Below are positions 22,955 through 38,892 of a DNA stretch of 64,000 bases, in pieces; the first letter of the stretch is position 1, and every line of letters begins with the position of its first letter. The stretch spans positions 1 to 64,000 of the forward strand of contig JAADJB010000045.1 of NCBI GenBank assembly GCA_013151035.1, written 5' to 3'. This DNA is from Gammaproteobacteria bacterium. GTDB taxonomy: Bacteria; Pseudomonadota; Gammaproteobacteria; JAADJB01. The notes below the pieces were generated by a model, which saw only the letters and a program-made list of their open reading frames with translations, did no database searches and was not told the origin of the DNA. Made by a program: the position numbers and the translations under genes.

Positions 22955-23598
22955 ATGGACAGAATGGAGCGCTTCTTTAAGATAGATCAGTTGTTGCGTC
23001 ATGCACAGATGAATGAGGGCGAGATCTATGCCTTACTGACCATGCAGCAGTTATTATCCGGCATGCAACCGGGCTTGTTGGGTGATCATATCCAGCCCAT
23101 TATGGAACGGGTGAATAAACTACCGGATTCAGCGAATCATAGTGTGTTATCTCACCACAACGCTTAATCTATTATCGGGATCACTGGTATCTGGATGCCT
23201 GGTGTCATAAGCGGGATGAATTGCGCATCTTTGCGGTTGAATCAATAAGGCAGGCAAACCAGATGGATGAAAAGGCAAGGAATGTCTCCGATAAATTACT
23301 CGATACCGAGCTAGGCAGTGGTTATGGTATCTTCACCGGATCAAAAACCAGGGATGCTGTATTGCGGTTTAACCCGATGATGGCGCGGTGGGTGGAGACC
23401 GAGGCATGGCACCCGCAACAAGAGTCTAGATATGATCGGGAGGGTTATTACCTGCTCTCCATTCCTTATGCCGATGACAGGGAATTGATGCAGGATATAT
23501 TAAAGTATGGTGCCAATGTAGAGGTGTTAAAGCCCGCTGCATTAAGGCAACGGGTACAGCAGGCATTAATAGATGCAGCAACATTATATGAGGATTAA
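22955..23598 (+). pseudogene. Decayed WYL-domain transcriptional regulator
   Basis: Three pieces of a YafY-type WYL regulator are joined. MDRMERFFKIDQLLRHAQ is the N-terminus, but the HTH that should follow is missing, and the text resumes at EGEIYALLTMQQLL ... GDHIQPIMERV. After ANHS (about 23143) a second deletion and frameshift leads into SPQRLIYYRDHWYLDAWCH (from about 23152) in another frame, the WYL core. The C-terminal WCX part (SGYGIF ... WHPQQESRYDREGYYLLSIP) is intact to the TAA at 23596-23598. So about 60 N-terminal and about 60 central residues are lost. It lies immediately upstream of the helicase gene, which it may once have controlled. Confidence 0.88.
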
Positions 23599-23599
23599 A

Positions 23600-26500
23600 A
23601 TGTATAAAAAAAATAAATCGTTTGTTTTCTCTCCATCGGATCTAACGGTTTTTAGCGGGAGCCCCTTTGCCTCATGGATGGATCATTTCCATCAGTTCTT
23701 TCCTGAGGAGGATGTGAATGAGGATGATGACGATGATTTCATGCAACTGTTGCAGGAGAAAGGTTATGCCCATGAACAGGATGTTCTTCAACAGCTAAAG
23801 GAAAAAGGTCTATCAGTGATTGATATCGCTGATGAGGAGGATCCCTGTCAAGCCAGTATCGAGGCGATGAAGCAGGGCTATGATGTGATTTTTCAAGCCG
23901 TTCTCCAACATCAACCCTTCAGAGGCCACGCTGATTTTTTGGTCAAGGTTGCCGGTGATAGCGCGTTGGGTGATTATCACTATGAGGTCTGGGATAGCAA
24001 GCTATCAAAAAGTATGAAGCCCTATTTTGTCATCCAGCTTTGTTGTTATGAGGATATGTTACAGGCGGTTCAGGGCAGGCGCTCAGAAGAGATCGTGGTG
24101 GTGCTGGGTAATGGTCGCCATGAGCGATTAAGAACCGATGATTATTTTTATTATTATCTTTCATTAAAGCAGGCCTTTCTCGCGTTACATGAGGGCTTTG
24201 ATCCCGAGCAACAACCTAACCCTGCCCATTTTTCATCCTGGGGTCATTGGAGCGACTATGCCAAGGCGTTATTGCTAGAGGTCGATCACCTGTCACAAGT
24301 CGCAACAATCACCCGTGCACAGATTAAAAAGTTTAATAAGGCAGGCATTACGACGATGCAGGGTTTGGTTGACAGCGATTGCCCGGTTATCACTGGCATT
24401 AATGCCTCAATCTATGCCCGACTCAAGCAACAGGCGACCTTGCAAAAGAACAGTGAGGGTAAAGAGTCTCCACTTTATGAGATTGTCCCGGAAGGTGAGG
24501 ATAAAAAGGGGCTATCTTTGTTGCCGCCGCATTCTGATAAAGATGTCTTTTTTGATATCGAGGGTTATCCCTTGGCAGAGGGTGGTTTGGAATATCTATG
24601 GGGTAACAGCTATTTTGATGATAGCGGTGCGCGACAATTTAAAGACTTCTGGGCACACAATCAGGCGCAGGAAAAACAATGCTTTCAGTATTTTATACAG
24701 TGGGTGTATGGGCGTTGGCAGTCTGACCCTGCCATGCATATCTACCACTATGCCAATTATGAGATTGCCGCCTGTAAAAAACTCATGGGTCGCTATGGTG
24801 TGTGTGAAGACGAGCTGGATCAACTGTTGCGTAACGAGGTCTTTGTTGATCTCTACAAGATTGTAAAAAGCGGCCTGCTTATTGGTGAGCCACGTTACTC
24901 CATCAAGAATGTCGAGCACCTTTATCGCGGTAAACGAGAGACCGCTGTGGGTGATGGCGGTGCCTCGGTCGTGGTCTATGAACAATGGCGTGTTAATCCT
25001 GATGGTGAGACCTGGCAGGACTCGAAGATCCTGAAGGATATCCGTGATTACAATATTGATGATTGTGATAGCACACAGGAGTTAGTGGACTGGCTCAGGG
25101 CGCGTCAGATCGAGAACAAGATAGGGTATGACGGCAATAATGCGATTGTTGTGCCGGATATCCCGGAGCTTATTTCAGAACGAATACAGCTTAGGGATAA
25201 GTTGTTGGCCTGTGCCAATGAGATAAGAGAGAGCGATCCTGAGCGAGCGGCATTAACAGAAAATATGGCGTGGGCACTGGAGTTTCATCGTCGAGAGGCA
25301 AAGCCACTCTATTGGCGTTTGTTTGAGCGCATGGCAATGACAGATATAGAATTGCTTGATGACCTGGATTGCCTCGCCTGTTGTGAAAGAACAGAACGTG
25401 AGGCGTTTAAGCCAACACCGCGTGCACGTAATCTGGCGTATGAATATCGCTTTGATGTGCATCAGGAATTCAAGGCATCCAAGGCCCGGAGTTTTTATCT
25501 TCTAGGGTATTATAAAGAGGATGGTTGGCCCTTGGGTGTTACCTGTCTCAAGGATGAAAGTAATTTCAAAAAGGGTCTTGTGGTGATACAGGTCAAAGAA
25601 GAGCCACCCACATTAATATCTCTTATCCCTAATGAACAAATATCTGCCGAACCTATACCGGGTGCCATTAATCGTGTTGTTAAGGCGTATGATAAAAAGG
25701 GCGTTACTCAATCGGCGCTAATGGATTTTTTGCAACGGAAGCCACCACGCATTAAAGGATTAAAGCGCAGTCAGCCCATTGTCTCAGCACATGATCCAGA
25801 GCAGCGGCTTGAGCAGATTACCCAGGCGATTATTAATTTAAAAAATTCCTACCTGACGATACAAGGGCCACCCGGATCAGGCAAGACCTATACCGGTAAG
25901 CATGTGATTGCCGCATTATTAAAACTGAATAAAAGGATCGGGATTTGTTCCAATTCACACAAGGCGATTAATAATCTATTAATCGGTGCGGTAAAGACCT
26001 GTCAGGTACAGGGTATTGAGGGTTATTTTGCCTGTAACAAGAATACGGACCCTGAACTGGAGGAGCTGGATGTTGAGATTATAGGCAATCCTGCTATAGC
26101 CAATCATATCGACGGTCCCTGCATCATTGGCACCACCGCCTGGGGTTTTAGTCGCAAAGAGCTGGAAAAGAGTTTTGACTACCTGTTTATTGACGAGGCA
26201 GGGCAGGTGAGTGTGTCTAACCTGATAGCCATTAGTCAGGCGACCAACAATCTGATCCTGATGGGTGATCAGATGCAGTTAGGGCAACCGACCCAGGGCA
26301 GTCATCCCGCAGAGAGTGGTTTGTCAATACTCGATTATCTATTACATGATAGCCCCACGATCTCAGAGACTATGGGTGTTTTTCTTGCCATGACCTATCG
26401 TATGCATTCAGCGGTTAATGATTTTATCAGTCATGCCATCTACGAAGGTAAGCTGGAATCTGACCCCGATAATGATCAACAGCTTATCGCCGTGCCCAAA

Positions 26501-26995
26501 AACTATCAAGGTCCATTAGATAAAGAGGCGGGCATTATTTATATACCTATAGACCATGAAGGTAACCAACAGGCGAGTGATGAAGAGGTCGCCGCTATCA
26601 AGAAACTAAGCAAGCAATTATTAGGTCGAGAGTTTACCGATAAAGAAGGCAATCAACGCAAGATCGGATGGGATGATATTCTTTATGTCGCACCGTATAA
26701 CCTCCAGGTGACCAATCTACAAAAGGCACTAGGAAAGAAAGCCAGAGTTGGAAGCGTGGATAAATTCCAGGGACAGGAAGCCCCCATCGTATTCCTGAGT
26801 ATGTGTAGCAGCGATGCCGGTGATTCACCACGCGGTATTGATTTCCTGTTTGATAAACACAGGATTAATGTCGCAGTATCAAGGGCACAGGCAATGACCA
26901 TCGTAGTTGCCAACCCCACTTTAAGGATACAGAATGCAAGCAATATAAAACAGCAGAATGCAATCAACATCTTTTGCCGATTATCATCCCGGTAG
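23600..26995 (+). CDS. TM0106-type RecB-like nuclease / RNase H-like / SF1 helicase fusion
   Basis: About 1131 residues from the ATG at 23600, which has GAGG six bases upstream and follows the WYL remnant's stop by one base. Domains: RecB-like PD-(D/E)xK nuclease (about 70-200, EVWDSKLSKSMKPYFVIQLC), YprB/RNase H-like exonuclease (about 315-500, DVFFDIEGYPLAEGG with paired acids, YHYANYEIAA, CDSTQELVDWL), then a Upf1/DNA2-like helicase: IQGPPGSGKTYTGKHVI, DYLFIDEAGQVS, LMGDQMQLGQPTQG, VGSVDKFQGQEAPIVFLS and INVAVSRAQ. It probably unwinds and degrades nucleic acid in repair or phage defence. The TAG stop belongs to a palindromic repeat. Confidence 0.88.
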   Translation: MYKKNKSFVFSPSDLTVFSGSPFASWMDHFHQFFPEEDVNEDDDDDFMQLLQEKGYAHEQDVLQQLKEKGLSVIDIADEEDPCQASIEAMKQGYDVIFQAVLQHQPFRGHADFLVKVAGDSALGDYHYEVWDSKLSKSMKPYFVIQLCCYEDMLQAVQGRRSEEIVVVLGNGRHERLRTDDYFYYYLSLKQAFLALHEGFDPEQQPNPAHFSSWGHWSDYAKALLLEVDHLSQVATITRAQIKKFNKAGITTMQGLVDSDCPVITGINASIYARLKQQATLQKNSEGKESPLYEIVPEGEDKKGLSLLPPHSDKDVFFDIEGYPLAEGGLEYLWGNSYFDDSGARQFKDFWAHNQAQEKQCFQYFIQWVYGRWQSDPAMHIYHYANYEIAACKKLMGRYGVCEDELDQLLRNEVFVDLYKIVKSGLLIGEPRYSIKNVEHLYRGKRETAVGDGGASVVVYEQWRVNPDGETWQDSKILKDIRDYNIDDCDSTQELVDWLRARQIENKIGYDGNNAIVVPDIPELISERIQLRDKLLACANEIRESDPERAALTENMAWALEFHRREAKPLYWRLFERMAMTDIELLDDLDCLACCERTEREAFKPTPRARNLAYEYRFDVHQEFKASKARSFYLLGYYKEDGWPLGVTCLKDESNFKKGLVVIQVKEEPPTLISLIPNEQISAEPIPGAINRVVKAYDKKGVTQSALMDFLQRKPPRIKGLKRSQPIVSAHDPEQRLEQITQAIINLKNSYLTIQGPPGSGKTYTGKHVIAALLKLNKRIGICSNSHKAINNLLIGAVKTCQVQGIEGYFACNKNTDPELEELDVEIIGNPAIANHIDGPCIIGTTAWGFSRKELEKSFDYLFIDEAGQVSVSNLIAISQATNNLILMGDQMQLGQPTQGSHPAESGLSILDYLLHDSPTISETMGVFLAMTYRMHSAVNDFISHAIYEGKLESDPDNDQQLIAVPKNYQGPLDKEAGIIYIPIDHEGNQQASDEEVAAIKKLSKQLLGREFTDKEGNQRKIGWDDILYVAPYNLQVTNLQKALGKKARVGSVDKFQGQEAPIVFLSMCSSDAGDSPRGIDFLFDKHRINVAVSRAQAMTIVVANPTLRIQNASNIKQQNAINIFCRLSSR

Positions 26996-27014
26996 GGTGC
27001 GTACTACGCACCAA
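26991..27014. repeat. GTAGGGTGCGT-family palindrome, supplies a stop codon
   Basis: Full copy, GGTAGGGTGCGT-ACT-ACGCACCAA. The TAG at 26993-26995 is the stop of the helicase gene. It lies between that gene and rmuC and could act as a terminator or mRNA end. Confidence 0.95.
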
Positions 27015-27035
27015 TTCAATTAAAGAGAAACAAAC

Positions 27036-28613
27036 ATGATCATTGATATAGTTATTACATTAGTCATTGCCACCATCGCCACAACGATGGGCTACTTCAT
27101 CAGCCGCAGCAAGGCCAACGCAGAACTCGCGCGCCTTCAATTAGATGCCGATTTAAAACAACAACAATTAGCCGAGCTGGAATCAAACAAGACAGAACAG
27201 CAGCAAACCATAGATGCCTTAAAGACAGAACTAACCGATAGCAAGACAAACCTGGCACTTGCCAAACAACAGTTAGAGAGTATCCAGTCACAGTATAAAG
27301 AGGTACAAGAAAAACACGCCGATGCGCAAGGCAAGTGTAATCAATTACTCACCAGCCTGTCCGAACAAAAGAGTGTTTCATCATCAACCCAGGCCAGCCT
27401 CAATGCCGAGAAAGACCGAGCCAATAAACTCAACACAGCGTTAGAGGCCGCTCATTCCGAACTAAAACAGGCACGACAGGAAGCCGGTAAGCTAACAGCA
27501 GAGAATGCCGAGTTACGCACCAGTCAACAGGAAAAGGAAGCCGGTTTCAAAAAACAACTCGCCCAGTTTGAAGAACAAAAGGAAACCTTGAAAAAGGAAT
27601 TCAGGATTGTCGCCAATGAAATTTTTGAGGCCAAGGGCAAGACCTTTACCGAAACCAGTAAGGAATCACTCAGTGCCTTACTCAATCCATTTCGTGAACA
27701 GATGACCGCATTCAAGGCCAAGGTTGAAGATATCCATCACAAGGATACCCAGCAACAGAGTGAGATGAAAACTGAATTAAAAAATCTGCAAAAGATGAAT
27801 CAGGAGATTACCGAAGAGGCACACAATCTCGCCACCGCATTAAAAGGCAAGAACAAGATGCAGGGTAACTGGGGTGAGATGATCCTGGAGAATGTGCTGG
27901 ATCGTTCCGGTCTGGTGCTAGATAAAGATTACAAACGAGAGGTGAGCTTTAATACCGCAGAGGGTCGCAGTCGCCCCGATGCCATAGTCTATCTACCCGA
28001 TAATAAACACCTGGTGATTGATGCCAAGGTATCACTCAATGCCTACACCCGTTATGTGAATGCCGAGGATGAACTGGAACGTGAACAGGCGCTCAAGGAA
28101 CATATCGCAGCTTTTGGTGATCGCATCAAGGAATTGTCAGACCGTAATTATTATGACCTCCCCGGACTGAACTCACCCGATATGGTGTTTATGTTTGTAC
28201 CGATTGAATCCGCCTTTGTTGAAGCACTCAAAGGTGATGAGATGTTATTTCAGAAAGCACTGGAACAAAATGTATTGGTAGCAACCCCGACCACATTATT
28301 AACCAGTCTCAATATCGTGCGACAACTATGGCGCTTCGAGGATCAAAATAAAAACACCGCCGAGCTAGCAGAAAAAGCCGGCAAGATGTATGACAAGCTC
28401 AATGGCTTCCTTGTCAGTATGAAAACGGTGGGCTCATCCCTGGATAAGGCAAAAGAGACCTACGATAAGGCCTATGGGCAGTTATATACAGGGCGTGGAA
28501 ATCTAATCAAACAGGCCAATGAGTTCAAGAACCTGGGTGTATCGGTTAAGGCCGAGTTACCACAAGAGTTAGTGGATAAGGCCGAATTGGAATTGATTGG
28601 CCATGATAAATAA
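27036..28613 (+). CDS. rmuC: DNA recombination protein RmuC
   Basis: A 525-residue RmuC family protein. N-terminal transmembrane helix (IVITLVIATIATTMGYFI), a long coiled coil (about 25-230) and the RmuC core (about 230-490) with KGKNKMQGNWGEMILENVLD, RSRPDAIVYLPDNKHLVIDAK (a PD-(D/E)xK-like nuclease strand) and FVPIESAFVEAL. RmuC limits inversions at short repeats and is linked to nucleic acid cleavage; some relatives defend against foreign DNA. It follows the nuclease-helicase by a repeat and about 20 bases on the same strand. Confidence 0.94.
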   Translation: MIIDIVITLVIATIATTMGYFISRSKANAELARLQLDADLKQQQLAELESNKTEQQQTIDALKTELTDSKTNLALAKQQLESIQSQYKEVQEKHADAQGKCNQLLTSLSEQKSVSSSTQASLNAEKDRANKLNTALEAAHSELKQARQEAGKLTAENAELRTSQQEKEAGFKKQLAQFEEQKETLKKEFRIVANEIFEAKGKTFTETSKESLSALLNPFREQMTAFKAKVEDIHHKDTQQQSEMKTELKNLQKMNQEITEEAHNLATALKGKNKMQGNWGEMILENVLDRSGLVLDKDYKREVSFNTAEGRSRPDAIVYLPDNKHLVIDAKVSLNAYTRYVNAEDELEREQALKEHIAAFGDRIKELSDRNYYDLPGLNSPDMVFMFVPIESAFVEALKGDEMLFQKALEQNVLVATPTTLLTSLNIVRQLWRFEDQNKNTAELAEKAGKMYDKLNGFLVSMKTVGSSLDKAKETYDKAYGQLYTGRGNLIKQANEFKNLGVSVKAELPQELVDKAELELIGHDK

Positions 28614-31045: not shown

Positions 31046-31528
31046 GTGCTAGAATTAGTGACTATGGATACCCAAATATTACAGAACAATATTGAGAGAA
31101 TGGAGAAACTTGCCGTTCGCTTAAATGAGTCAGTGAAACGCATTGATGCCATCATGCCTCTTGATCCGGAAATATTTGACCCGGATCAGGTCGATTCGGA
31201 TGAGCTGTTATTTCTGGATGCCTTTAGAATACGGTTTTCGGATCTCCAGGATGTGATTGGGCATACTATATTTTATATGGTGGCACTGTATGATCTGGAT
31301 GAATCTCCTGCACAGCGATTATCGACTCGGGAAAGAATCCATTTAATGGAGCGCAAGAGCTTGATTGATGCCTCTGAATGGAATGAATTAAGAGAAATCA
31401 GGAATGGTTTTGCTCATGAATATCCGGATGCCTCCTCTGAAAAGGCAGAGGCATTGAATGCGGCATGGCGATACAGTTCTAAACTGATCGTGCTGAGCAA
31501 AAAATTAAAGGCCTATCTATGCGGCTGA
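31046..31528 (+). CDS. hepT: HepT-type HEPN ribonuclease toxin
   Basis: A 160-residue all-helical HEPN protein. The motif R119-NGFA-H124-E-Y126 is RX4HXY: the Arg and His make the RNase site, and the Tyr is the residue that MntA modifies with AMP in characterised type VII pairs. The start may be GTG at 31046 (GAGAG upstream) or ATG at 31064. It overlaps mntA by 10 bases. Here the HEPN gene precedes the nucleotidyltransferase. It should act in the cytoplasm on RNA or tRNA ends when not AMPylated. Confidence 0.87.
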   Translation: MLELVTMDTQILQNNIERMEKLAVRLNESVKRIDAIMPLDPEIFDPDQVDSDELLFLDAFRIRFSDLQDVIGHTIFYMVALYDLDESPAQRLSTRERIHLMERKSLIDASEWNELREIRNGFAHEYPDASSEKAEALNAAWRYSSKLIVLSKKLKAYLCG

Positions 31529-31827
31529 CTGAACGACAAGTCACAGCTATTCAATTAGTCGCGGATAAATTTTTGCAGAATTATCCAGATGCTGGCTTAT
31601 GGCTATTTGGTTCTCGCCTGAATGATGAGGTGCGGGGTGGCGATGTTGATTTTTGTCTTTTTTTAACAGAGAACAATATAGAAAAACGGGCAAAACTAAA
31701 ACGGCAACTGCGGCCTGCGCTGGAAGAGGCTGTTGATATTAGCACTGATCTGATAATACAGGATCTTGATTCGCCTTTAAAAGCCGTGGCACGAAAGGCT
31801 CAGGAGGAGGGTGTCAGGTTACGGTGA
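31519..31827 (+). CDS. mntA: MntA-type minimal nucleotidyltransferase antitoxin
   Basis: A 102-residue minimal nucleotidyltransferase. LWLFGSRLNDEVRGGDVDFC (about 28-47) is the GSx9DxD catalytic motif with two metal-binding Asp; the third carboxylate is likely in AVDISTDLII (Asp around 78). In known HepT-MntA systems this enzyme polyAMPylates the toxin Tyr to silence it. All catalytic residues are intact. Its ATG lies within the hepT 3' end, so the pair is coupled. Confidence 0.88.
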   Translation: MRLTERQVTAIQLVADKFLQNYPDAGLWLFGSRLNDEVRGGDVDFCLFLTENNIEKRAKLKRQLRPALEEAVDISTDLIIQDLDSPLKAVARKAQEEGVRLR

Positions 31828-32040: not shown

Positions 32041-33045
32041 TCATTCATCCGTGTATGTCATGTACATCTCCCTGACTATCCCTGCAAATTCCCGTCTTAA
32101 CGCAATCGGCTTAACCACCTCGACCTGATCGCCAAATCCGAGCAACCACCAGCGTAATTGATAGGTGTCTTTGACGGTGGCGCGGAGTTCTTTGCGGTCA
32201 TTATCCAGCGGGGTAATCCTCTGATCCTTGCTCAGTGGGGTCTCTGTCAGGTGATGGATGCTGGTGTTACTAAAATAGGCTACCAGCTTGATATTTTTGT
32301 CACCGGGCAGTGCATATTCTGTGGTGCCGGTGGCTATATAATCATCCAGATTAAAATTGTCGGGGCGTTGTAGGGAGGTATCCATGATCTCTGTTTGTAT
32401 AAAACGATGCAGGGCAAAATGGCGAATGTCTTCGTAGTCCCATAGCGTGGCAATTAGATAAACCACGCTGTCGCGGAAAATCAGGCCGAGTGGATGAAAT
32501 TCATATTCTGCGATATCGTCCTGTCTGTTTTTATAACGCCCACGGAACTGTTGACCCTGTAGCAGGGCATCGTAGATAACACTGAGTACGGTTTGATTAA
32601 TACTTGCCGGAATCAAGGGTTGTGTCCGCGCTACGATCCGCACATGATCGGACCAGTTACCGAGTGAATTATTATCAATCTTACTCAGGATTTTGTCGGC
32701 ACTGCGAAAGTAGGGTTGTAGTTGTGTGAGTACGGCAGGGGGAATCAGGTTGATTAAAAAGGTTTGTGCCAGCTTGAAGGTGAGCGCGGTGGATGGATCA
32801 ATTGATGGCATATCGTGGAGTTCTGCATCCTGTCGCCATGACCAGCCAATCTCATCCTTGTTACCATCGTTGACCAGTTCTGGAAAGATGCTGGATAGAT
32901 TACTCAGATCACGTTGGGTATTACGGCGTGCGGTATTAAAACCTTCGGCCTGTAGCTGTTTGGTGAGGATTCTGGAATTGGTTTTTTTGGGTTGACGTGG
33001 AATCATCTTGAGCATCATCCACTGTCTTAAGAGCGCATCTGACAT
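32041..33045 (-). CDS. WYL-domain transcriptional regulator
   Basis: A 334-residue regulator. N-terminal winged HTH (about 1-65, NTARRNTQRDLSNLS as recognition helix), a WYL domain (about 145-235, with VVYLIATLWDYEDIRHFALHR in place of the canonical W-Y-L strand) and a C-terminal WCX domain (about 260-330, TYQLRWWLLGFGDQVEVVKP). WYL regulators sense nucleic acids or small ligands and often repress defence genes. It is divergent from the AAA+ ATPase gene, with a palindrome in between; it probably controls that operon. Unlike the remnant at 22955, it is intact. Confidence 0.88.
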   Translation of the reverse strand: MSDALLRQWMMLKMIPRQPKKTNSRILTKQLQAEGFNTARRNTQRDLSNLSSIFPELVNDGNKDEIGWSWRQDAELHDMPSIDPSTALTFKLAQTFLINLIPPAVLTQLQPYFRSADKILSKIDNNSLGNWSDHVRIVARTQPLIPASINQTVLSVIYDALLQGQQFRGRYKNRQDDIAEYEFHPLGLIFRDSVVYLIATLWDYEDIRHFALHRFIQTEIMDTSLQRPDNFNLDDYIATGTTEYALPGDKNIKLVAYFSNTSIHHLTETPLSKDQRITPLDNDRKELRATVKDTYQLRWWLLGFGDQVEVVKPIALRREFAGIVREMYMTYTDE

Positions 33046-33064
33046 AATTGGCCTTTTTAGTATC

Positions 33065-33081
33065 GCGTCATATAGTGACGC
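33065..33081. promoter_or_regulatory. Palindrome between WYL regulator and AAA+ ATPase genes
   Basis: GCGTCA-TATAG-TGACGC, a perfect 6-base inverted repeat 20 bases upstream of the WYL start and about 90 before the ATPase start. It is the natural operator candidate for the divergent regulator. Binding is inferred. Confidence 0.55.
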
Positions 33082-33170
33082 TACACTGCTTTGTTGATCT
33101 ATTTTATTGCGTGATGTCTGTCATAATAGTGTCCATAGCTTGTTGATGCAAGTTTTAACAGGAGAAGATT

Positions 33171-35306
33171 ATGATCAGTTTTTCTTTAGTTCGACCCGAT
33201 GTAAAAAGGGGTGTTTGTTTGGCTTCTGAATATACGGATGTTATAAAATTATGGACGCTGAGAACAATATGTTTGTTGCCCAATATAAAAAGAAAGCATA
33301 GTAGTTTCAGGCATAGTGGCGATATTACCAGTGACAGGGAGATACTTGAGGCAATGGATATGCTTGAGTTGGAAAATTCCGATATTAAGGCACGCGCCCT
33401 TAAACGAAAGATTTATTCTGTTCTGGATGAGGTGGAGCAGAAAAAAGATCTGGCGATTGGTGGGGTATTAGAGGCTAATCTCACATTATTGCAACAGCAT
33501 CTGGATCTTCACCATAGTGATATATTGATCCTGGCCTTTCTGACGCTGGTGGAAATGAATCCGGGCATGAGAAGTGCGGTGGATACTCTGGGTGAGATCA
33601 GTGGCGATGGTCTGATTAAAACAGTGGCTTCGATACTGGATATTGATCGGGTCGATATTCGTCGCTCACTTTCGCGTGATGGGATCTTGATTCAAGCAGG
33701 CCTGCTCAAGTTTGATCGTGATGGGCCTAACGAGATTTATCGTAAGCTGGATCTGCTTGATGATCTATCGGATTCATTGCTTAGTCAGCATGACAACATC
33801 TATGACATGCTGAATGGCTATCTCTCCAGGGGTAAGAACAGTGAGCTTGATAAAGTGGATTTTGATTATCTGGATTCACAAACTCAGGTGTTGTCTCAAC
33901 AGATTGAAAAGGTATGGGATACACGGTCGAAAGGGACGAATATTCTGGTTTATGGGCCGCCGGGTACGGGTAAGAGCGAGTATGTGCGCCTATTGGCACA
34001 GACCCTGGAGGCCAATTTTTATGAGATCAATACGGAAGATTCGGATGGTGATTCACTGGCCGGCTATAATCGTTTTCGTTCCTATCAGTTGGTGCAACGA
34101 TTGATTGCGCGTCATCAGAAAGCATTGGTGATCTTTGATGAGATCGAGGATGTCTTTCCACGGCAATCTTTTTCGTTTTTTGGTAGAGCGACGCATAAGA
34201 GTGCGGGTAAGGCATGGGTTAACCGTCTGTTGGAAGATAACCCCATTCCGGCTATCTGGATTAGTAATTCAGTGGGTGAACTGGATCCCGCTTATCTGCG
34301 TCGATTTGATCAGGTGATAAAAATGGATACCCCACCGCTCAGTGTGAGAAGACGTATTCTGGATAAAAGCCTGTCAACATTGAATGTATCACCACAGTGG
34401 ACAGAACGGGTCTCTGAAAATGCGGCATTGGCACCGGCTATTGTCACGCGTGCAGCCAAGGTTGTTGCTATGACAGCCGGGGCATCTGATCAAAATGTCA
34501 TTGAAGGTCGGCTGGAACAGTTGATTGGTAGCACGATGGAGGCGATGGGGTATTCAGATATCCTGTTTAATCGACAGTTGAGTCCTTTAGATTATCATCT
34601 GGAATATCTCAATACCGATATTGATATTGAATCTTTGGTATCCGGTTTGGCTAAAAATCCTGTGGGCAGGTTTTGTTTATACGGTGCACCGGGAACAGGT
34701 AAGACAGAGTTTGGTCGTTATGTTGCCAAGGCAATGGATAAACCCTTGTTGGTGAAGCGTGCCTCTGATTTGCTTTCAATGTATGTTGGCGAGGCTGAAA
34801 AAAATATTGCGGCCATGTTCAAAGAAGCACAACGGGATGACGCTGTGTTATTGCTGGATGAGGCGGATAGTTTTTTACAGGATCGTAAGGGAGCACATAA
34901 TAGTTGGGAGGTTACCCAGGTTAATGAGCTTCTGACGCAGATGGAGGCCTTTGAGGGCTTGTTTATTTGTTCAACAAATCTAATGGATAACCTGGATGCA
35001 GCGGCATTGCGTCGTTTTGATTTCAAGATTAAATTTGATTATCTTGGCAGAGATCAGGCATGGTCACTCTTTAATCGGCTGTTAGAAGCGCATGGCGATA
35101 AGGTGCAGATAGATGCAAGTCATCGCAAGGTGCTTGATGGTATAAGAAACCTGGCACCTGGAGACTTTGCGGTTATCGCGCGTCAGCAACGTCTATTTAA
35201 CAAGCCACTAACCCCGGATGTCTTATTAGAACGCTTGATGGATGAATCTGATTTTAAGTCGGATGGTGATAAACAAGCCATGGGATTTACTGCGAAGATT
35301 CATTAA
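33171..35306 (+). CDS. Double AAA+ ATPase of unknown function
   Basis: A 711-residue protein with a helical N-terminal region (about 1-250) and two AAA+ modules. AAA1: YGPPGTGKSEYVRLLA near 262, ALVIFDEIEDVFP near 325, and AYLRRFDQVIKMD. AAA2: YGAPGTGKTEFGRYVAKAM near 506, AVLLLDEADSFL near 565, and ALRRFDFKIKFD. Both Walker A and B motifs and the Arg near LRRFD are intact, so both rings should hydrolyse ATP. It resembles CDC48/FtsH-like unfoldases but lacks a protease domain. AGGAGA precedes the ATG. It heads a plus-strand unit with the ADP-ribosylglycohydrolase and GGCT genes, opposite the WYL regulator. Confidence 0.88.
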   Translation: MISFSLVRPDVKRGVCLASEYTDVIKLWTLRTICLLPNIKRKHSSFRHSGDITSDREILEAMDMLELENSDIKARALKRKIYSVLDEVEQKKDLAIGGVLEANLTLLQQHLDLHHSDILILAFLTLVEMNPGMRSAVDTLGEISGDGLIKTVASILDIDRVDIRRSLSRDGILIQAGLLKFDRDGPNEIYRKLDLLDDLSDSLLSQHDNIYDMLNGYLSRGKNSELDKVDFDYLDSQTQVLSQQIEKVWDTRSKGTNILVYGPPGTGKSEYVRLLAQTLEANFYEINTEDSDGDSLAGYNRFRSYQLVQRLIARHQKALVIFDEIEDVFPRQSFSFFGRATHKSAGKAWVNRLLEDNPIPAIWISNSVGELDPAYLRRFDQVIKMDTPPLSVRRRILDKSLSTLNVSPQWTERVSENAALAPAIVTRAAKVVAMTAGASDQNVIEGRLEQLIGSTMEAMGYSDILFNRQLSPLDYHLEYLNTDIDIESLVSGLAKNPVGRFCLYGAPGTGKTEFGRYVAKAMDKPLLVKRASDLLSMYVGEAEKNIAAMFKEAQRDDAVLLLDEADSFLQDRKGAHNSWEVTQVNELLTQMEAFEGLFICSTNLMDNLDAAALRRFDFKIKFDYLGRDQAWSLFNRLLEAHGDKVQIDASHRKVLDGIRNLAPGDFAVIARQQRLFNKPLTPDVLLERLMDESDFKSDGDKQAMGFTAKIH

Positions 35307-35343
35307 GTAGGTGCGTTGATGTTTCGTTTAGCCTGGGACAGGA

Positions 35344-35439
35344 ATTGTTCTTATCCAACAGAGACACGCCGTGAATACATCCATGTAGGCTCGACAGCCG
35401 CGTCCATGCGGCTGACGGTCTCTGTTGGATAAGAGCAAT
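35344..35439. repeat. Long hairpin repeat, copy 1
   Basis: A 65-base core (35360-35424: AGAGACACGCCGTG ... GACGGTCTCT) holds inner hairpins ACATCCATGT and AGCCGC-GTCCAT-GCGGCT. The stem extends outwards into ATTGTTCTTATCCAAC / GTTGGATAAGAGCAAT, giving 22 paired bases with one mismatch. The outer arms are unlike those of copy 2 (43779-43870). It lies between the AAA+ gene and the truncated glycohydrolase. Confidence 0.92.
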
Positions 35440-35480
35440 ACCTGTTTGTTGAGTTAATGCGGTTATAGTTAGGAGAAGTA

Positions 35481-36161
35481 ATGAAATTAATAGAACGTTA
35501 TCTCAGTAGTACCGGGCGTTGTTTTGATATTGGTGGCGCTGTGCTTTCGGCATTAATGCGCTATGAGAAATCAGGCGAAGCGTATGCAGGAAGCGCTCAT
35601 CCACAGAGTGCAGGTAATGGTTCACTCATGCGCCTGGCACCGCTTGCTCTTGCCTATGCCAATAATCCTGAGCAGGCTATCGAACTCTCAGGGCAGATGT
35701 CACGCACCACGCATGGTGTAACTGTCGCAATAGATGCCTGTCGTTATTACACTGCTTTGATTATTGGTGCCCTGCAAGGTCGTTCAAAGGGTGAGTTGAT
35801 GGATGATCGTTTTAACCTGGTTGAAGGTTTGTGGGACAGGCAACCTCTGGTTAAAGAAATTGATGAAGTGGCACGCGGTTCATTTCAGTTTAAGCATGCT
35901 GATGAAATCAAGGGTTCGGGTTATGTAGTGGAATCACTGGAGGCATCACTCTGGGCCTTTTATACCACGGATAGTTTTGAAGAGGGTGTATTAGCGGCGG
36001 TGAATCTAGGTGATGATGCCGATACCACCGGGTCTATCTATGGTCAGCTGGCCGGTGCTTATTATGATATTGACAGCATACCGCAACACTGGCGAGACAA
36101 GATTGTTAGCTCGGATCTTATTATTGATCTGGCAGAGAAGATGATGGAGTGTATCGATTAA
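35481..36161 (+). pseudogene. ADP-ribosylglycohydrolase, N-terminally truncated
   Basis: Residues 1-226 match the ADP-ribosylglycohydrolase family from its internal YLSSTGRCFDIG motif onward: SAGNGSLMRLAPLALAY, SRTTHGVTVAIDACRYY, GSGYVVESLEASLWAF and NLGDDADTTGSIYGQLAGA, the second metal-binding site. The usual first 80-90 residues with the GDALG and TDDTxM metal motifs are absent. The frame begins at ATG 35481 with a good AGGAG site, just after the hairpin repeat, so it may be translated but should lack half of the binuclear Mg site. Function is probably lost or changed. Confidence 0.8.
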
Positions 36162-36635
36162 ATGGAATTAGATGATCAACGATTATATTTTGCCTACGGT
36201 ATGAATACTAACCTGGAAGGGATGAAGGTACGGTGTCCACAGGCCGAACCGATTGGTCAGGCCGTGTTACAGGATTATCGCTTAGTCTTTAGAGGGGTTG
36301 CCGATATCGAGCCAGCAGATGGTGATGAGGTTGCGGGTGTCTTGTGGTGGATCACGCCTGATTGTGAGGATGCGCTGGATATTTTAGAAGGCTATCCCTA
36401 CATGTATGGAAAAAGGGTAGTGAGTGTTACCCGGCCAGAGGGTAATGTAATGGATGCGATGGTCTATTACATGATGGATCAGGATGCAGAGGCATCCCCG
36501 AGCCATTTTTATATGGATGAACTGATTAGTGGTTACCGGACATTCAAGCTGGATCTTAATCAGTTAACCGACGCAGTCAAATCTTGTTCGGAGACATTGA
36601 CAGAGAAAGAGATAAAAAATCAGTATGGCTTGTAA
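36162..36635 (+). CDS. Gamma-glutamylcyclotransferase-like (GGCT/AIG2) protein
   Basis: A 157-residue protein. YFAYGMNTNLEGM (about 9-21) is the substrate-binding loop (usual form YGSNLN; Ser is Met here), and ALDILEGYPYMYGKRVV (about 74-90) holds the catalytic Glu. GGCT-like enzymes release 5-oxoproline from gamma-glutamyl compounds. It starts one base after the glycohydrolase stop, so the two are coupled. The exact substrate is unknown. The Ser-to-Met change may alter specificity. Confidence 0.82.
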   Translation: MELDDQRLYFAYGMNTNLEGMKVRCPQAEPIGQAVLQDYRLVFRGVADIEPADGDEVAGVLWWITPDCEDALDILEGYPYMYGKRVVSVTRPEGNVMDAMVYYMMDQDAEASPSHFYMDELISGYRTFKLDLNQLTDAVKSCSETLTEKEIKNQYGL

Positions 36636-37057: not shown

Positions 37058-38087
37058 TGCAAAAGGTCGTATTCAGAATATCAATATTAAGGTGGTAGGT
37101 AGACCGGCTGGAGTGCTTAATAAAAAGTCTCAATTGGAATTCACATATCATTCTGATATCAGTAATGATATATCGGTAACCATGCCATTGAGTACGCCAC
37201 ATTATCAACGTGGATGAGATGCTTTTTTTATCGTTACAAGGACTCACGGGTATTGGTTGCCTTGGTTATGAGACAGCCGGTATTGAGTCAGAAGATATTG
37301 GCGGAGAAAAACTTTCAGAGATTCTTGCCTGGCAAGGTAAAGATGATTTATTTGAAGAGTTGCTTAATAAGTATTTGCTACAGTCGACGCTTAGCGGTGT
37401 GCAACCTAAAGTCATAGTGCCAGAAGAACAGACTGGATTGGAAAAGGGGGCATTTATTCTTCCTTCTCTAATCGTAAAGACCAGTGATGAGGATTATCCT
37501 GAGCTTGCGATTAATGAATATATTTGCATGAATTTGGCAAAGGCCTGTCAAATAAAAACACCTGATTTCTGGTTATCGGATAATCAACAGATCATAAGTA
37601 TCAGGGTAGTTATGAATCTATAGGTAAGGCACTTAATCTGTATTCATCTACTCCTAAGGAAGATATGGAAATATTTTTTAAAATGGTTGTGCTCAGTTGT
37701 TTGGTGGGAAATGGTGATGGCCATTTAAAATTTTTTTCTATGTTGTATGATCATCCTGATAATATGCGTTTAAGTCCTGTATATGATGTTGTTAACACGC
37801 AAATCTATATGCCAAAGGATACGCTTGCGTTAAATTTATCTAAATCAAAAGACTTTCCTGATCGACGAAGAATGATTGCCTTGAGTCAGTCATTGGGGAT
37901 AAAAAATGGAGAAATGATCCTCGATGAAATGGCAGGTATAGTTCGAGAACAGCTCGATAAGTTATCTGATTATACTGAATTAATGGCGCTTGATATTAAA
38001 GCTGCAATATTAAAAAACCTTCATTTAGTTACAACGCGTACAGCAATTAAAACACACTCATCAAGAAGGTATACTAAACATCATTGA
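37047..38087 (+). pseudogene. hipA: HipA-like kinase toxin, broken in several places
   Basis: Three frames are needed. 37047-37217 reads the N-terminal subdomain (GRIQNINIKVVGRPAGVL ... ISVTMPLSTPHY) and ends in TGA. 37210-37600 reads LQGLTGIGCLGYE and STLSGVQPKVIV ... IVKTSDEDYPELAINEYI. After DNQQ (about 37595) a deletion of roughly 50 codons and a shift lead into GSYESIGKALNLYSS and the catalytic part VGNGDGHLKFFS (metal/catalytic Asp) and LSPVYDVVNTQIY, ending at 38087. The kinase cannot be made. It overlaps hipB's end, the usual hipBA arrangement. Confidence 0.88.
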
Positions 38088-38157: not shown

Positions 38158-38523
38158 CTATTTCAGTTCATAATCCTGGATCAAACTTTCGGTAGGAATT
38201 TTTAGTCCGGCATGTAGTTTTCTAATCATGCTTAATGTTAATTTGCGTTTGAAATTGAGCACTTCAGATACACGGCCAGATTGTCCAATATAGGGTATTA
38301 AATCTTTATTCTTCAGGTCGTATTGCTCCATACGGAAGCGAATGGCTTCCACAGGGTTGGGTGCATCGACAGGGTAATGTTGTGCCTCATATTTCTCAAT
38401 TAATGTTACGAGTATATCAAGCTTATCGCCTGCCGCCGTATCAAGACTGGCATCCATTAAATCATTAACCTGTGCAAGGGCGGCATTATAGTCTGCTTCA
38501 CATTTAATGGGTGTGATATTCAT
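38158..38523 (-). CDS. higA: HigA-type antitoxin
   Basis: A 121-residue antitoxin of the HigA group that has an N-terminal helical part (ITPIKCEADYNAALAQVNDL), the AQHYPVDAPNPVEAIRFRM linker and a C-terminal XRE HTH (KDLIPYIGQSGRVSEVLNFKRKLTLSMI). It looks complete. Its ATG overlaps the stop of the toxin gene upstream (TAATG-like). It would bind the toxin and the operon promoter. Confidence 0.92.
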   Translation of the reverse strand: MNITPIKCEADYNAALAQVNDLMDASLDTAAGDKLDILVTLIEKYEAQHYPVDAPNPVEAIRFRMEQYDLKNKDLIPYIGQSGRVSEVLNFKRKLTLSMIRKLHAGLKIPTESLIQDYELK

Positions 38524-38765
38524 TATATGGTCTCCACATTGATAGTATCGTATTGCTGATGAGTGCCCACAAAGCGTATGTAGACGACGCGGCTATCCTT
38601 GAGAATACTTGCATTGCGGAATTGTGCTTTAACCTGTTGAGGTGTTTCCCAGTTGGCTTCAGTAACCTCTTTATGCCAGGCTGCCAATGGGGCTTGAGCG
38701 TCGGCATATTCAGGATGTGACTGCCAGAACTCACGCAGTGTCCGTTTTGCGATGATTCTCATCAT
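38523..38765 (-). pseudogene. higB: HigB-type mRNA interferase with an internal deletion
   Basis: The frame reads MMRIIAKRTLREFWQSHPEY and AQFRNASILKDSRVV as usual, then goes straight to YIRFVGTHQQYDTINVETI. HigB proteins have about 22-24 residues here (FN-x-GGN-x-x-R strand pair, then VVYIRFVGTH), which make the central beta sheet and part of the RNase site. The loss is in frame and lies between the two VV positions. The toxin is about 80 residues instead of about 104 and should be inactive, while the antitoxin gene is whole. ATG 38765 or 38762 is the start. Confidence 0.75.
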
Positions 38766-38892
38766 CCCATTATGGGAGTTTTTTTGTAAAGTCAATACTT
38801 ACTTATAGAATTAATACACACTTGGTGATAACCGATTTTATTATCAGCATCCCGGCCTGATTTAATTTGTGCCTAAATATGTATCGTTCACC

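Follow-up and report, generated by a model that had tools for sequence, protein, structure and literature searches.

A gene for a WYL-domain regulator in a gammaproteobacterium lies back to back with genes for a AAA+ ATPase, an ADP-ribosylglycohydrolase (ARH) and a protein resembling gamma-glutamyl cyclotransferases (GGCT). The locus raises the question of whether these four genes form one stress or defence module and, if not, which of them belong together and under what control. The window, meaning the whole stretch of DNA analysed, comprises 64,000 nucleotides (contig JAADJB010000045.1, positions 1 to 64,000). A sequence-only reading had proposed a four-gene stress or defence module with a two-ring ATPase and had noted a palindrome between the divergent genes.

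Gene content of the locus and its relatives

Open reading frame (ORF) and Pfam checks recovered all four genes where they had been placed. The regulator is a DriD/PafBC-like WYL-WCX protein of 334 amino acids, encoded on the minus strand (32,041–33,045; Pfam WYL 2e-14, WCX 6e-14). Its gene is divergent from that of a 711-amino acid tandem AAA+ ATPase on the plus strand (33,171–35,306), with 125 bp between the two. Further along the plus strand lie an internally deleted ARH of 226 amino acids (35,481–36,161) and a GGACT/AIG2-like protein of the gamma-glutamyl cyclotransferase family (36,162–36,635; Pfam GGACT 3e-12). The gap between the ATPase and ARH genes holds a dispersed hairpin repeat of approximately 107 bp (35,338–35,445), positioned just upstream of ARH. 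Its 28-nt arms are 93% complementary and at least 40 copies exist in the genome of the window; it is likely a repeat of the MITE or REP type. Since this element separates the ATPase from ARH, the single uninterrupted operon that had been assumed is doubtful.

ATPase relatives gathered from genomes provided 88 loci outside the window, and 95 ATPases entered the linkage count. A strong-scoring WYL gene is present at 28 of the 88 loci and a DUF2779 gene at 13 (by profile or phmmer), in varying order and strand. ARH is found at none of them, and a GGCT gene adjoins the ATPase at one, as an ATPase-GGACT-WYL run (L103, 9,749–10,117). The four-gene module was rejected because ARH and GGCT are this rare near the ATPase. 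The linkage between regulator and ATPase, in contrast, is strong and repeated. Across 369 genomes sampled evenly from the class, the WYL type occurs in 29 and the ATPase in 24; both are present in 15, compared with 1.9 expected (p = 4e-13), and the two genes are then mostly less than 10 kb apart. A WYL gene lies within approximately 6.5 kb of 37 of the 95 ATPases, again in varied order and orientation. There is no WYL gene near 54 of the 95, which include a large Burkholderiales clade and mostly have no operator either. In a quick tree of the ATPase, the deep order of which is unsure, the WYL-linked genes are scattered and the Burkholderiales clade without WYL is again seen.

The grouping with ARH stood in one respect: the enzyme recurs near the WYL type, but not at the ATPase loci counted above. 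ARH occurs in 36 of the same 369 genomes and together with the WYL type in 8 (expected 2.8, p = 0.004). The two genes are approximately 10 kb or less apart in six of these (the window genome, G135, G222, G235, G321 and G362). As judged from these comparisons, what is conserved is a unit made up of the WYL regulator, the operator and the tandem AAA+ ATPase, to which DUF2779 is often joined; a partial literature search found no paper linking DUF2779 with WYL. It is very improbable that the locus is a chance cluster of unrelated mobile genes in an island rich in toxin-antitoxin systems. VapBC-like, HigBA-like, HipA and HEPN/NTase genes do surround it and GGCT recurs only once, but the co-occurrence of WYL and ATPase and their common operator are far above chance. 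The GGCT-like protein is regarded as a passenger, and for it and the local ARH chance clustering may be the explanation.

Several other genes were noted around the locus and its relatives. At 31,046–31,827, a HEPN-like protein gene followed by a minimal nucleotidyltransferase gene converges on the WYL gene and is a probable MNT/HEPN toxin-antitoxin. Another NTase/NTase-substrate-binding pair adjoins the WYL gene in L096. A HipA_C domain extends over two adjacent ORFs at 37,210–38,087 (profile positions 2–62 and 120–208) and looks like a broken hipA. The pair at 38,158–38,795 consists of a HigB-like toxin gene and one for an antitoxin that aligns with the N-terminal third of the PADLOC model PD-Lambda-2_B, and a related pair stands beside WYL and ARH in L205. 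A TM0106-like nuclease/RNase-H/helicase fusion of 1140 amino acids, followed by RmuC, occupies 23,573–28,613. This fusion has relatives next to the ATPase in L050, L087 and probably also on a Pseudomonas luteola plasmid; in L217 and L220, the operator precedes RmuC-like genes by 43–46 bp. A family of approximately 200 amino acids recurs near WYL in L031, L062, L201 and L206 (L062:1487-2143, L201:13391-14008); the L062 member has no Pfam match. A second family of 199 amino acids, also without a Pfam match (L096:10997-11596), occurs near WYL-ATPase in L096, L115 and L200. No tRNA was found in the window as a site of integration.

Kinship of the regulator and its operator

A profile built from 18 WYL relatives was compared with known structures and matched DriD at 3e-18 and PafBC, the second-best PDB match, at 6e-17, whereas CapW and BrxR scored approximately 1e-3. 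The regulator is thus closer to two activators of the DNA-damage response than to CapW and BrxR, which the sequence-only reading had cited as WYL regulators of defence genes. The DriD match spans the WYL-WCX region and not the helix-turn-helix (HTH). A winged HTH (wHTH) is predicted from the N-terminal pattern, and R41 and R45 are invariant in this region among the relatives. With this putative domain, the protein has the three parts of a DriD-type activator (wHTH, WYL and WCX). PafBC, the mycobacterial activator, differs in being a heterodimer or fusion that uses sigma adaptation; the regulator here is one WYL protein, paired with a palindromic site.

Studies of DriD in Caulobacter crescentus have reported the consensus ATACGAC-N7-GTCGTAT, a site that covers the −35 and keeps a constant distance to the −10. 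The protein is switched on by ssDNA and activates an operon transcribed divergently from the gene that encodes it (PMC12340889). The palindrome in the window (33,065–33,081) had been described as perfect; it is more correctly two 6-bp arms around a 5-bp spacer, GCGTCA-TATAG-TGACGC. Alone it is not above chance, as the inverted repeat was equalled or bettered in 147 of 500 shuffled versions of the intergenic sequence, but comparison with relatives identifies GCGTCA-N5-TGACGC as a variant of an operator, GCGACA-N5-TGTCGC. The same architecture is common to the upstream regions of the related WYL and ATPase genes, with the site recurring before WYL relatives and most WYL-linked ATPases, plasmid copies included.

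Loci with the WYL gene hold 93 sites with at most one mismatch in 970 kb, where approximately 2 would be expected by our estimate. Exact sites number 39.7 per Mb in loci with WYL, 2.1 per Mb in those without and 0.06 per Mb by chance. A site upstream of the ATPase (at most one mismatch, TGWCGC half-sites) is present in 25 of 37 loci with WYL compared with 11 of 53 without it (p = 1e-5), several of these 11 being short contigs in which a WYL gene could be missed. Many of the WYL-positive loci in which the motif was counted are those from which it had been derived; independent checks are provided by the WYL-negative loci, genome counts, plasmids and viral loci. Across the 369 genomes, exact sites tallied by hand from a table came to 24 in the 29 genomes with WYL and 58 in the 340 without it, the latter being the level of chance. 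Five of the six plasmids examined carry the site upstream of their ATPase gene, and the ATPase homologues of viral contigs are distinct, with no operator site in 251 kb.

The relatives carry the pseudo-palindrome CGAC-N7-GTCG, which is also the core of the DriD consensus, with flanks that differ (GCGAC here, ATACGAC in DriD). The window has the symmetrical variant CGTC-N7-GACG, shared by one site in L224. Among 70 cases, a −10-like hexamer starts 9 nt past the site in 15 and 10 nt past it in 17, against a background of approximately 2, so that the fixed distance known from DriD is seen at the level of the family. This spacing is not apparent in the promoter of the window, where 98 bp separate the site from the start of the ATPase gene instead of the usual 50–60. 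By its likeness to these sites, the palindrome is a putative operator and a real variant of the family site. It is the sole GCGWCA-N5-TGWCGC in its own 2.4-Mb genome (approximately 0.6 expected by our estimate) and therefore the regulon there is local.

WYL proteins of the CapW/BrxR type are established as repressors of defence operons (PMC9122588, PMC9122601). An unlikely alternative is that such a repressor silences the ATPase, as an anti-phage effector, until infection occurs. BrxR operators are likewise inverted repeats with a 5-bp spacer, the regulator in both cases sits beside defence-type genes, and one plasmid copy adjoins BREX-2 while some loci adjoin restriction-modification genes. 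However, the sequence match to these repressors is weak, as described above, and the family site is placed 9–10 nt upstream of the −10 and not on it, unlike that of CapW. PADLOC tallies of neighbours gave no clear enrichment of defence genes and no clear difference between ATPase loci with and without WYL, in counts to which shadow ORFs from a simple gene caller add noise in GC-rich DNA.

A further level of control may lie in the leader of the ATPase. In the window, a possible hairpin on the plus strand (33,139–33,162; fold z −1.39, a weak signal) would pair part of the Shine–Dalgarno sequence. The mean fold z of ATPase leaders is −1.07 with the operator and −0.19 without it, also a weak difference. 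Hairpins pairing the presumed mRNA start with the Shine–Dalgarno sequence were observed in leaders such as those of L046, L057, L060, L067, L072 and L201, their sequences differing from locus to locus. This suggests translational control of the ATPase.

The tandem AAA+ ATPase

The ATPase consists of a helical N domain with no family assignment (residues ~1–215), D1 (~216–475) and D2 (~476–711). The two-ring assignment was confirmed by a complete set of ATPase motifs in both AAA rings. The Walker A lysines K268 and K511, both Walker B DE pairs, the sensor-1 asparagines and the arginine pairs are invariant in 54 relatives, as are G540 and E543 in D2. By analogy with classical AAA proteins, the pore-loop-like YVG at residues 538–540 (34,782–34,790, plus strand), within SMYVGEAEKNI, would be pore loop 1. 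The protein thus has the features of a tandem classical AAA+ ATPase: two modules with Walker A/B, sensor 1 and arginine fingers, and an aromatic loop in D2. Its AlphaFold2 model has a mean pLDDT of 89.5. A profile search returned VCP-like/Cdc48 at 1e-52, and the top matches by profile and by fold were Rix7, Cdc48, p97 and Afg2, with Rix7 and Cdc48 the best in Foldseek.

The natural reading is that of a double-ring protein unfoldase or segregase resembling Cdc48/p97/Rix7, with which it shares the two rings and the classical D2 with its YVG loop. It differs from them in being bacterial and distant (17–20% identity), and in a helical N domain that replaces the N domain of p97. The best PADLOC match, through similarity in the AAA domain, is IetA of the IetAS defence system. 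Membership was rejected at 122 bits against an NCBIfam cut-off of 510, and no IetAS protease partner was present among the scanned neighbours in the window. A partial literature search found no published account of the ATPase with WYL, or of the operator outside Caulobacter.

Exchangeable cargo and a proposed damage response

The assignment of the third gene to the ADP-ribosylglycohydrolase family was upheld, but not its status as a whole enzyme. The protein matches only positions 77–287 of the 287 in Pfam ADP_ribosyl_GH. Its native start, MKLIERY, is fused in frame to YLSSTG, as seen against relatives at 43–59% identity. Compared with intact relatives, approximately 81 residues (counted by hand against L140) have been lost in frame, including the GDALG and W(S/T)DDT metal-binding motifs. 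A functional ARH has this half as well as the DDADTTG half, and the first is missing here. Because of this loss, the protein is probably inactive. The deletion could be real or a fault of assembly; a search of the window genome revealed no further copy of ARH.

ARH sets with WYL regulators are known. In the case of the ARG-centric anti-ADP-ribosylation systems predicted by Iyer et al. (2022), the passage concerned (PMC9503650) describes shared neighbourhoods of WYL, ARH, chaperones, R-P and calcineurin-like phosphatases, 5′-nucleotidase, macro/NADAR and nucleases. Applied to the present locus, WYL would sense ADP-ribose products, ARH would strip phage-added ADP-ribose from host proteins, and the ATPase would replace the peptide-binding chaperone. 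Several relatives fit such a scheme beyond the nearness of ARH to WYL in the five other genomes listed above. L222 (G206) has ARH-DUF2779-ATPase-WYL as one run with ARH intact, and in L201 (G362) ATPase-WYL is accompanied by two ARHs, two phosphatases (one of the PTP type, the other a metallophosphatase) and a HEPN-like protein. An R-P phosphatase occurs in L050, L201 and L212, a 5′-nucleotidase in L050, and the operator precedes ARH in L201, L205 and L212. Most WYL-ATPase loci, however, are without ARH, and the relevant passage of PMC9503650 names neither a AAA+ ATPase nor GGCT. Such systems are marked by an intact ARH, a WYL or Nudix regulator and no linked ADP-ribosyltransferase; the window has the WYL protein and a broken ARH, while L222 and L212 have both the ARH and the WYL parts. 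The scheme is rated as improbable for this locus, a little more so than the repressor discussed above, and in some genomes the chaperone's place in such sets may be taken by the ATPase.

The ATPase is also found on plasmids with varied company: with BREX-2 genes, WYL, Sir2 and a dual-specificity phosphatase in Sphaerotilus; with DUF2779, WYL, a YqiA-type hydrolase and a metallophosphatase in Diaphorobacter; with macro, DUF2779 and WYL in Rhodoferax; and with RtcB and WYL in Methylomonas. Besides the ATPase, the operator precedes genes for WYL, ARH, DUF2779, PTP phosphatase, RmuC and possibly RtcB.

The preferred reading, to which a probability of about 0.58 is given, is that of an inducible, DriD-type mobile stress or repair island, a regulator-operator-effector pair around a p97-like unfoldase. 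It builds on what sequence comparison establishes, namely the gene pairing, the operator, the −10 spacing of the family, the DriD/PafBC kinship, the p97-like fold and the ARH deletion. From these we infer activation instead of repression, an ssDNA ligand, and the unfoldase activity and its substrate. The regulator would bind as a homodimer between the divergent genes, as at the bidirectional promoter of DriD, and would sense a damage signal on nucleic acid, by analogy with DriD most likely ssDNA. The activated protein would recruit RNA polymerase to the promoter of the ATPase, a p97-like target that sets the locus apart from that of DriD. The ATPase would assemble as a Cdc48/p97-like double-ring hexamer, threading and remodelling protein complexes that are damaged or stuck, on nucleic acid for instance, while linked enzymes would cleave or repair nucleic acid or strip off ADP-ribose. 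This repair or conflict cargo, carried around the pair by genomes and plasmids, would be exchangeable (DUF2779 nuclease, RNase-like HEPN, RtcB, Sir2, ARH, macro, phosphatases), with several of its genes under the same operator as the ATPase. In the window, the cargo would be the GGCT-like protein and the ARH minus its active-site half.

WYL control of stress and defence islands, DriD itself and the ARH-WYL sets were known before. More tentatively, at slightly less than even odds, there may exist a widespread proteobacterial DriD-like WYL regulon, marked by GCGACA-N5-TGTCGC with the half-site TGWCGC. On chromosomes and plasmids alike, it would couple a p97-like unfoldase, inducible by damage to nucleic acid, to an exchangeable set of nucleases, RNA-repair enzymes and ADP-ribose enzymes. 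The view of a working ADP-ribosylglycohydrolase at the locus is corrected, and the operator offers a handle for reading out the regulon across many genomes. DriD-type activation by DNA damage would thereby be linked to mobile repair and conflict islands beyond Caulobacter, and the p97 segregase may have a bacterial counterpart in this ATPase.
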